Shown here piece after piece: positions 7,631 through 10,560 of a stretch of 64,000 bases of DNA; the first letter of the stretch is position 1, and every line of letters starts with the position of its first letter. Made by a program: the position numbers and the translations under genes. Origin of the DNA: Halanaerobium kushneri (GTDB lineage: Bacteria > Bacillota > Halanaerobiia > Halanaerobiales > Halanaerobiaceae); contig NZ_FTNC01000005.1 of the NCBI RefSeq assembly GCF_900156285.1, positions 1 through 64,000 on the forward strand, given 5' to 3'. The notes beneath the pieces are model-generated. The model ran no database searches and was not told where the DNA came from. It saw only the letters and a list, made by a program, of their open reading frames with translations.

Positions 7631-9529
7631 TTGCTTAAATTTGAAGTGGAAAAGCGACTGCGTTTTTTTTCGCTGATACTTTTCCTGGCCTTTATTTTAA
7701 AATATAATTATTTGATGCTGCATATATTTTATGCACCATCTCTGACAGCGCTGATAATTAGAAATTTATTTTTTATCATATTTTACTTAAAATTTGTTGA
7801 GCCTCTGCTTATTTCTAAAAAGATAAGACAGAGGTTGTTTTTGATGCTGATAATTTTTACTATTTTTGTTTTATCTAACCACTGGTATAACCGTTATTTT
7901 GGTAATTTTCTAAGTATCAGTGATATTTTTGCAGGAGAGGGAACCGGTCAATTTTCAATGTATGAGGTTTTATTTACTCATATTTTTAAATACTGGGATG
8001 TTATTTTTATTCTTGATATTGTGCTGCTTGGTATTACCGGCTTTAATTCTCTCCCGGATCTTAATCTAGTTAAGGACTGGGGTTTTTGGAAACTATCATT
8101 AAAAGAAATTCCCATCAAAAACACAACTGCTTTTGCGCTTATTATTTTACTATTACTGGTTCAGATAGTTGCAGGCAGTTATATAATGGGTGGCAAGAGC
8201 CCGGCAGAACTTTACCGATCAGGCAGCTCCTACTTAGCATCAGTTTATGGTATTTTACCATTATATACAATAGAGGCCTACAGTTATATAACCCGTGAGG
8301 AAGAAAAACCAAGACCGGAACTTAAAAATATTCCTTATTATAAAAAGCAAAGACAGCTCAGTGGGATCCAAAAACTTCCTGACAAAACAAATGTAATTCT
8401 AATTCAGGTGGAATCACTTGATGCAAAGGTTTTGGATTACAGCAAACAGGGAGAACAGATAACACCTTTTTTAAATAAGCTTAAAGATCAGAGTCTTTAT
8501 TTTGAAAATTTCTATGCTCAGAAAGTTAACGGTAGTTTTGATGCGGATTTATCAACTCTTACTTCTTTATATCCCGTTAATCGCAGTTATGTTTTTAGAG
8601 ATATTGATCTGAGTGCTTTTCAGTCTTTACCACTGCTGCTTAAGGAAAAAAATTATCAGACTCTTGCTTTTCACAATAATGATCGTAACTTTTTTAATCG
8701 GGCTGAAGCTTATCCAGATCTGGGCTTTGATCGTTTTTACAGTCAGAGATATTTTGAAGAAAATATCTACCCTGTACCTGAGGCGAGAGGACTGGGAGTC
8801 AATGATTATGATTATTTTAATCAGGCTGCAGAGATTATAAAAGAAAAAGCGGCAGCTGAGAAGCCATTTTTTGCTTATTTAATTTCACTAACCAGTCATA
8901 CTCCTTTTAATTTTTATCCGAAAACAGCTGTTAAAGAATTTGCTGGAGTAAAAAATAACCTGGTTCAGAATTATTTTAGATCAATTAATTTTACAGATGC
9001 TGCAATTGAAAACTTCGTTAATAAACTTAAAGAAGCCGGGATAATGAAAAATACTCTGCTTGTTATTTATGCTGATCATGAGTCTGAAATTAAATCTATA
9101 GAATATGAATCAGACAGTGATTTTACTCTCTGGCGGAATGTAAAAGTTCCTTATCATATTCCTCTGATTATTAAACATCCAGAGATTAAAAATAGGACAA
9201 TTAAGCGGGAAGGTACTACCACAGATATAGCCCCAACTGTACTTGATTTGCTTGGATATCAGGAATTACCCGATCAGTTTGTGGGCAGTTCATTATTTTT
9301 AGAAGAGGAAAATCCAATTTTATTTTTACACGAAACTCCACATCTGCTTAAAGATGGGCAGCTTTATATAAAAGAATTGGATCAAATAATTAAAGTGGGA
9401 CATTTAAAAAATCAGGAAAAAGAAATAACATTTTCTGAGGCAAAAATAAATGAAATAACAGAAATAATTGATTATATGCGCAGTATTTTTATGATTAATC
9501 AGGGTGAGATATTTAAGGAGGTGGAATAA
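7631..9529 (+). CDS. LtaS/OpgB-like phosphoglycerol transferase, membrane-bound sulfatase fold
   Basis: 632 residues: about five N-terminal membrane helices (residues ~12-184), then an extracytoplasmic alkaline-phosphatase/sulfatase domain from about 250. The metal ligand Glu261 (QVESLD) and the ADH pair near residue 480 are visible. Where LtaS has its catalytic Thr (TSDAE), this protein has Ser302 (GSFDAD). Such enzymes move glycerol phosphate from phosphatidylglycerol to lipoteichoic acid (LtaS) or to osmoregulated glucans (OpgB). In a diderm host the latter type of acceptor is plausible; the sequence does not decide. The start is TTG at 7631, eight bases after AGGAGGA. It overlaps the next gene, a glycerophosphodiesterase. 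Confidence 0.85.
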   Translation: MLKFEVEKRLRFFSLILFLAFILKYNYLMLHIFYAPSLTALIIRNLFFIIFYLKFVEPLLISKKIRQRLFLMLIIFTIFVLSNHWYNRYFGNFLSISDIFAGEGTGQFSMYEVLFTHIFKYWDVIFILDIVLLGITGFNSLPDLNLVKDWGFWKLSLKEIPIKNTTAFALIILLLLVQIVAGSYIMGGKSPAELYRSGSSYLASVYGILPLYTIEAYSYITREEEKPRPELKNIPYYKKQRQLSGIQKLPDKTNVILIQVESLDAKVLDYSKQGEQITPFLNKLKDQSLYFENFYAQKVNGSFDADLSTLTSLYPVNRSYVFRDIDLSAFQSLPLLLKEKNYQTLAFHNNDRNFFNRAEAYPDLGFDRFYSQRYFEENIYPVPEARGLGVNDYDYFNQAAEIIKEKAAAEKPFFAYLISLTSHTPFNFYPKTAVKEFAGVKNNLVQNYFRSINFTDAAIENFVNKLKEAGIMKNTLLVIYADHESEIKSIEYESDSDFTLWRNVKVPYHIPLIIKHPEIKNRTIKREGTTTDIAPTVLDLLGYQELPDQFVGSSLFLEEENPILFLHETPHLLKDGQLYIKELDQIIKVGHLKNQEKEITFSEAKINEITEIIDYMRSIFMINQGEIFKEVE

Positions 9530-10560
9530 TTAAATACTTTATAATTATTTCAACCATCATCTTAGTCTTTGCTTTTATATATTTTGAATTCTACTATTTA
9601 ATTAGACCATCAAAACTGGGAAAAAAAATTATTGAAAACTATAATTTTGATTATCCGGTTCTGATAGCTCATCGGGGTGCTTCTTATGCTGCGCCTGAAT
9701 CTACATTACCGGCAGTTAAAATAGCTTTGGAAAGTGGTGTGGATTATATAGAACTTGATGTCCAGAGAACCAAGGATGGCGAACTTGTTGTTTTTCATGA
9801 TACAAATCTTCTTCGATTAACAGATGCCAGAAAAGCTTTTCCTGACAAGAAAAATTATGAACTTAAAAATTTTACCCTGGCAGAATTGAAAAAATTGAAT
9901 TATGGTGCCTGGTTCAATGTCAAATATCCAGAACGGGCCCGGGATAGCTACAGTCAACTAACTATTTTAACTTTAGCTGAAGTTTTAGACTTTGTTGATC
10001 CGGTAAATACAGGGGTTGGACTCTTTCTGGAATTAAAAAGTCCTTATCTTTATGAAGAAATTGAAAAAGAAATTGTCGCTCTCCTGCAGAAAAAAGAAAT
10101 ATATGAGACTGCTGAAAAGAAACCTTATATATTATTTCTTTCTTTTTCTCCAGCAAGTTTAAAGCGGCTTTCAGAATTACGTCCGGAATCACCACGGATA
10201 CTTTTAACCAGGAGAAATTTTGTTTCTCCAAAACGCTGGCGAGGCTGGCTGGAAATAACAGAAGAAGTAGCAGCTGGGATTGGTCCCAAAGGACATGTCA
10301 GTTTTCCCTGGTATATCGGAGCTGCCCATAAAAAAGGGTTATTTGTTTTTCCTTATGTAATTAATCGTTCCTGGCAGCTGAAGATTTTTTCCTGGTTTAG
10401 TGCTGATGGTTATATTACTGATCGCCCTGAAATGCTGGCTGATTTTTACAATAGGGTGCAGGAATTTGGAGAAAGTGTGGGAGAACTGGGGGAAAATATA
10501 CTCGAAGAGGAAGAGGAAAAAAGTACTGATGATTCCAATCAGCAAAAAAAAAATAATTAA
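9529..10560 (+). CDS. Membrane-anchored glycerophosphodiester phosphodiesterase with probable ATT start
   Basis: 343 residues. An N-terminal hydrophobic anchor (residues 3-24) precedes a GDPD TIM barrel with the catalytic HRG at 48-50, an APEST motif close to the usual PENT, ELD metal ligands and FHD. These enzymes release glycerol-3-phosphate from glycerophosphodiesters. The frame is open from the end of the upstream gene, yet the first ATG/GTG/TTG codon is TTG 9727, which would remove the anchor and the HRG. An ideal AAGGAGG (9515-9521) sits 7 nt before ATT 9529, so ATT (or ATA 9526) is the likely start. ATT shares its first base with the upstream TAA. The pairing with a phosphoglycerol transferase suggests turnover of its products. 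Confidence 0.82.
   Translation: MKYFIIISTIILVFAFIYFEFYYLIRPSKLGKKIIENYNFDYPVLIAHRGASYAAPESTLPAVKIALESGVDYIELDVQRTKDGELVVFHDTNLLRLTDARKAFPDKKNYELKNFTLAELKKLNYGAWFNVKYPERARDSYSQLTILTLAEVLDFVDPVNTGVGLFLELKSPYLYEEIEKEIVALLQKKEIYETAEKKPYILFLSFSPASLKRLSELRPESPRILLTRRNFVSPKRWRGWLEITEEVAAGIGPKGHVSFPWYIGAAHKKGLFVFPYVINRSWQLKIFSWFSADGYITDRPEMLADFYNRVQEFGESVGELGENILEEEEEKSTDDSNQQKKNN

Follow-up and report, generated by a model that had tools for sequence, protein, structure and literature searches.

An AUU codon conserved across Halanaerobium as the probable start of a membrane-anchored phosphodiesterase gene

Where does translation begin in a gene whose frame holds no canonical start codon ahead of its active site? 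The question is raised by a gene for a predicted glycerophosphodiester phosphodiesterase (GDPD) of Halanaerobium kushneri, which lies in the window, that is, the whole stretch of 64,000 nucleotides analysed here. The initial annotation of this DNA proposed initiation at an ATT codon, and comparison with relatives strongly supports that proposal.

The gene and its start site in H. kushneri

The features that bear on the question are the following, all of them on the forward strand:

7631-9529, forward: LtaS-like membrane protein of sulfatase fold (PF00884; Pfam Sulfatase, 163 bits), with a putative TTG start here; apparent operon partner
9515-9523, forward: extended Shine-Dalgarno (SD) sequence AAGGAGGTG, complementary over 9 nt to the 3' end of 16S rRNA
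9526-9528, forward: ATA codon adjoining ATT on its 5' side, a rival start with a 4-nt spacer; GTG in H. congolense
9527-9529, forward: TAA that ends the upstream gene and shares 1 nt with ATT (TAATT)
9529-9531, forward: ATT (AUU), probable start codon, with no canonical start before HRG, conserved in the genus and at the modal SD spacing
9529-10560, forward: gene for a putative membrane-anchored glycerophosphodiester phosphodiesterase (PF03009), 343 codons from ATT to stop
9535-9606, forward: hydrophobic N-terminal anchor, about YFIIISTIILVFAFIYFEFYYLI, read by eye from the translation and conserved in relatives
9670-9678, forward: catalytic HRG (H48 R49 G50), invariant in 21 aligned homologs and lost with a start at TTG 9727

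No stop interrupts the frame between a TAA at 9514-9516 and the stop at 10558-10560 (9517-10560), and its product is, as far as sequence can tell, a phosphodiesterase of the PF03009 family. The GDPD domain covers residues 48-301 (133.2 bits against a Pfam cut-off of 23.6), and the catalytic residues HR, E-x-D and H (H48, R49, E75, D77 and H90) are invariant among the 21 aligned homologs. The domain matches GlpQ-type glycerophosphodiester phosphodiesterases (PDB 5t91) over profile positions 44-304 (E 8e-48), from which the Halanaerobium protein differs by its predicted N-terminal membrane anchor and its probable non-canonical start.

As the initial annotation had stated, no in-frame ATG, GTG or TTG stands ahead of the HRG codons in the window, the first being TTG 9727. 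The perfect AAGGAGG that it had noticed 7 nt before ATT lies at 9515-9521, followed by TGGAATA and ATT 9529-9531, and the open frame does encode both an anchor, judged by eye, and the whole active site. This anchor would be part of the protein only if translation begins at or near ATT 9529. Substitutions in codons 2-47 relative to the homologs of related genomes are biased towards third positions (for example 5/1/16 and 7/1/14 at positions 1/2/3), which, together with the genus-wide ATT and its SD, argues that the 5' part of the frame is more than a chance opening.

The 3' end of 16S rRNA, GGCTGGATCACCTCCTTTCTA, was read in five Halanaerobium genomes and pairs with AAGGAGGTG over 9 nt; no match to it was found in the genome of the window, whose draft may lack that part. 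The region of the ribosome-binding site has no unusual structure (z -0.48) and no sign of an RNA switch. The 1-nt overlap with the upstream stop was absent from the initial annotation. As for the upstream gene itself, its protein scored 198.6 bits against the NCBIfam model for lipoteichoic acid synthase, far below the cut-off of 970, and is for this reason not given that name. The family names of the two neighbours suggest that, in the envelope, the pair may make and break glycerol-phosphate units.

Conservation of the start site in the genus and the order

The codon at this place in related genomes, which the initial annotation had named as a check, was compared in the genome of the window and 11 further Halanaerobium genomes (n=12), the sister genus (G013) and other families of the Halanaerobiales. 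Orthologs of the gene are present in 14 of the 14 Halanaerobiaceae genomes examined, including those of H. saccharolyticum, H. congolense, H. polyolivorans and H. salsuginis. Of the 12 Halanaerobium genomes, 11 carry ATT as the homologous codon and one (G002) carries ATC, ATG occurring in none, and the sister genus also has ATT. The genus shows GGAGGTGGAATA-ATT at this site, with minor differences, GGAGGTG being conserved upstream, and in G013 it reads GGAGGTGAATAAT-ATT, with GGAGG 8 nt before ATT and AAT directly preceding it. A more distant relative (G022) has GGAGGTGTTCAATA-ATT, but its start can be assigned with less confidence, an ATG standing between the anchor and HRG.

Position relative to the upstream stop is far less constant. 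Most species have the overlapping TAATT, G006 has TAA-ATT, with the two frames shared and separated by one TAA, and G013 has TAATATT, so that the geometry goes from a 1-nt overlap in the window and most of the genus to 0 nt in G006 and +1 nt in G013. Through all these shifts the distance from SD to ATT stays at 7-8 nt in Halanaerobium and G013, which argues for initiation placed by the SD. Among orthologous gene starts of two Halanaerobium genomes (G006 and G007), the commonest GGAGG-to-ATG spacer is likewise 7 nt (89/248) and a 4-nt spacer was counted in none (0/248), in a count whose preference for candidates with a spacer close to 8 somewhat favours the mode, and in which rimO may be a short-spacer ATG. 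The 7-nt spacer of GDPD is thus the modal SD-to-ATG spacer of the genus. Conservation of ATT would be weak evidence of a start if taken alone, since ATT is the commonest isoleucine codon in the compared genes (188/308); the case for AUU rests instead on the lack of alternative starts and on the position of the SD, not on the identity of the codon. A positive control is provided by infC, which in Halanaerobium genomes has a conserved ATC start in the same layout.

Canonical codons do occur near the GDPD start in relatives, none of them at homologous places. GTG or TTG lies within the anchor or just 5' of HRG in six genomes (G001, G004, G006, G007, G010 and G011), in which a shorter product is possible. 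In the family's second genus (G012) the upstream region differs and an ATG follows two codons later, and in other families, across the order and the class, the GDPD start is mostly ATG (e.g., G020, G023, G024, G026 and G027). In the protein tree Halanaerobium and G013, with their ATT forms, group together, with moderate support (84/82) under a midpoint root.

Altogether, AUU 9529 is very probably the initiation codon of the GDPD gene, and the conserved AUU start is almost certainly a real feature of the genus, neither a mutation nor a sequencing error. The alternative suggested at the outset, a mutated ATG, fails as a recent or local event, ATG being absent from all 12 Halanaerobium genomes; given the ATG of other families, it is likely that ATG gave way to ATT long ago in Halanaerobiaceae, which, with the grouping in the tree, would be the simplest history, although G012 has its ATG two codons away.

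Other readings of the junction

The nearest competitor is the adjoining ATA 9526, used alone or together with ATT. This codon is present in 10 of the 12 Halanaerobium genomes, and H. congolense (G005) carries GTG exactly there, giving GTG-ATT. Initiation at ATA would, however, entail the 4-nt spacer that none of the 248 counted GGAGG-ATG starts has, and in two genomes ATT is kept with no in-frame ATA beside it, TAA standing before ATT in G006 and AAT in G013, so that we consider this reading improbable. In H. congolense the GTG arose through two changes (GAA TAA to GAG TGA; L007:1498-1500) that are silent for the upstream gene.

It could also be supposed that the two genes form a single fusion, made by frameshifting or stop read-through, as their frames abut and in G006 are the same frame with one TAA between. 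The relation between the frames differs among species (-1 overlap, same frame, +1), and no single recoding event fits all of them, on which ground a frameshifted fusion is rejected; inspection by eye found no slippery site at the junction, and it is the SD and its spacing that are conserved instead of the frame relation. A fusion is accordingly very improbable. Less credible still is a start at TTG 9727, which opens the first frame that a mechanical caller limited to ATG, GTG and TTG would find and would yield a truncated product: such a start would cost the protein H48, R49 and the anchor, all of them invariant or conserved, while the codons 5' of it evolve as coding sequence. The same very low probability is given to the recent loss of an ATG by mutation, to a pseudogene and to an error of sequencing at 9531. 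The ATG of other families in the order might speak for these readings, but ATG is absent from this place in eleven independent congeneric genomes, every one of which keeps an unbroken frame.

Non-canonical starts and their possible role

With AUU 9529 as the preferred start, GDPD takes its place, by prediction, among genes with conserved non-canonical (AUH) starts, in which no canonical alternative exists, the codon is kept and an extended SD is well spaced. The initial annotation had described ATT starts as very rare outside infC, which is broadly right and yet incomplete, given the published cases of cvfC1, ccpN and sigR and, within the genus, the ATC of infC and the ATA of a panT-like gene. 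In Staphylococcus aureus, cvfC1 (AUU) and ccpN (AUA) resemble GDPD in having a conserved AUH start with an extended and well-spaced SD, kept across related species (PMC13009471). Their starts were mapped by ribosome profiling and reporters (PMC13009471), whereas that of GDPD is deduced from comparison; moreover, the GDPD start overlaps an upstream stop and its predicted product is a membrane-anchored enzyme. An AUH start with a strong SD is shared with infC, whose AUU or AUC serves IF3 autoregulation, but the GDPD product is not IF3, and any effect of this factor would be regulation in trans and not feedback. The GTC start of Streptomyces sigR (PMC5472188) is again genus-wide and non-canonical, with a AGGAGGTG-type ribosome-binding site in a gene other than infC; codon and gene class are different, and IF3 control has been shown for sigR and is only proposed for GDPD. 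Finally, the TAATG 1-nt overlaps at which termination-reinitiation takes place (PMC10666635) have the geometry of the GDPD junction, which differs by AUU in place of AUG and by a strong SD of its own. The putative AUU start of GDPD thus adds to the known class of conserved non-canonical starts with extended SDs.

How common such starts are was surveyed in 477 orthologous genes from a sample of two complete genomes of the genus (1.2 Mb each), by looking for genes whose only SD-supported start in both genomes is ATH or CTG, with opposite-strand shadow frames filtered. The survey is incomplete, as under the strict rule only 199 of the 477 genes showed, in both genomes, a canonical start backed by an SD. 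Run blind, it found six genes and recovered both infC (ATC) and GDPD (ATT); such starts are thus rare, with a share of no more than about 1% among the conserved genes of this two-genome sample. The infC gene (loci L031-L059) has ATC across most of the order and ATT in G021, and the site lacks any canonical start. Three further matches are located as follows:

C18:104584-105096 (L190) in the H. kushneri genome (G000), outside the window, and L100:13962-14477: ECF transporter S component (panT-like), adjoining a pan motif (RF01749)
G006 1726973-1729312, reverse, and G007 874319-876574, forward: ispH-like gene, whose sole SD-supported shared start is CTG, with a 10-nt SD match 8 nt before it
G006 369552-370091, forward, and G007 1242255-1242800, reverse: DNA-glycosylase-like gene with an SD-supported start ATA/ATT

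The ECF transporter S component starts with ATA in 12 of 12 Halanaerobium genomes and in G013, and with ATG in several other families; the pan motif beside it scores 43.3 bits, and the transporter is probably for pantothenate. The ispH-like gene possibly shares the trait with its CTG. Two matches were set aside, the DNA-glycosylase-like gene for its ambiguous start and rimO for an ATG directly before its ATT.

In the mechanism that we propose, initiator tRNA would read AUU 9529 as formyl-methionine, the codon being tolerated owing to the 9-nt SD AAGGAGGTG at the optimal distance of the genus. Ribosomes ending the LtaS-like gene would stop at the overlapping UAA (UAAUU) and could reinitiate in place, 1-nt stop/start overlaps being a standard coupling geometry (PMC10666635). 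The weak codon likely holds the phosphodiesterase low and substoichiometric to its LtaS-like operon partner, and likely renders it IF3-sensitive, IF3 being itself the product of a gene with an AUC start in the genus. In this line, yield in S. aureus is lowered where AUU or AUA serves as the start behind an extended SD (PMC13009471), IF3 represses non-canonical starts, one of them, the GTC of sigR, lying outside infC (PMC5472188), and re-initiation is inhibited by excess IF3, an effect that an SD moderates (PMC2268962). A study of reinitiation at non-canonical codons (PMC4648390) was set aside, as it concerns eukaryotic cells. Weak or regulated translation, which the initial annotation had also suggested, is plausible, and we regard coupling to the upstream gene and IF3 sensitivity, taken jointly, as about evenly balanced between true and false.

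A literature search on Halanaerobium start codons returned nothing relevant, and GDPD stands as a well-supported natural AUU start in a group where no start-site data were found. Gene callers restricted to ATG, GTG and TTG would truncate the enzyme past its active site in genomes that have no canonical codon, and its annotation is for this reason probably wrong in much of Halanaerobium. The GTG-ATT of H. congolense and the ATG of other families are natural variants that bear on the role of the weak codon. It may even be, although we hold this doubtful, that Halanaerobiaceae maintain a few conserved genes starting with AUH, and perhaps with CUG (infC AUC, gdpd AUU, panT-like AUA and perhaps ispH CUG) whose output is jointly tuned by IF3; if so, an envelope enzyme and vitamin uptake would track the state of the translation apparatus through the level of IF3.
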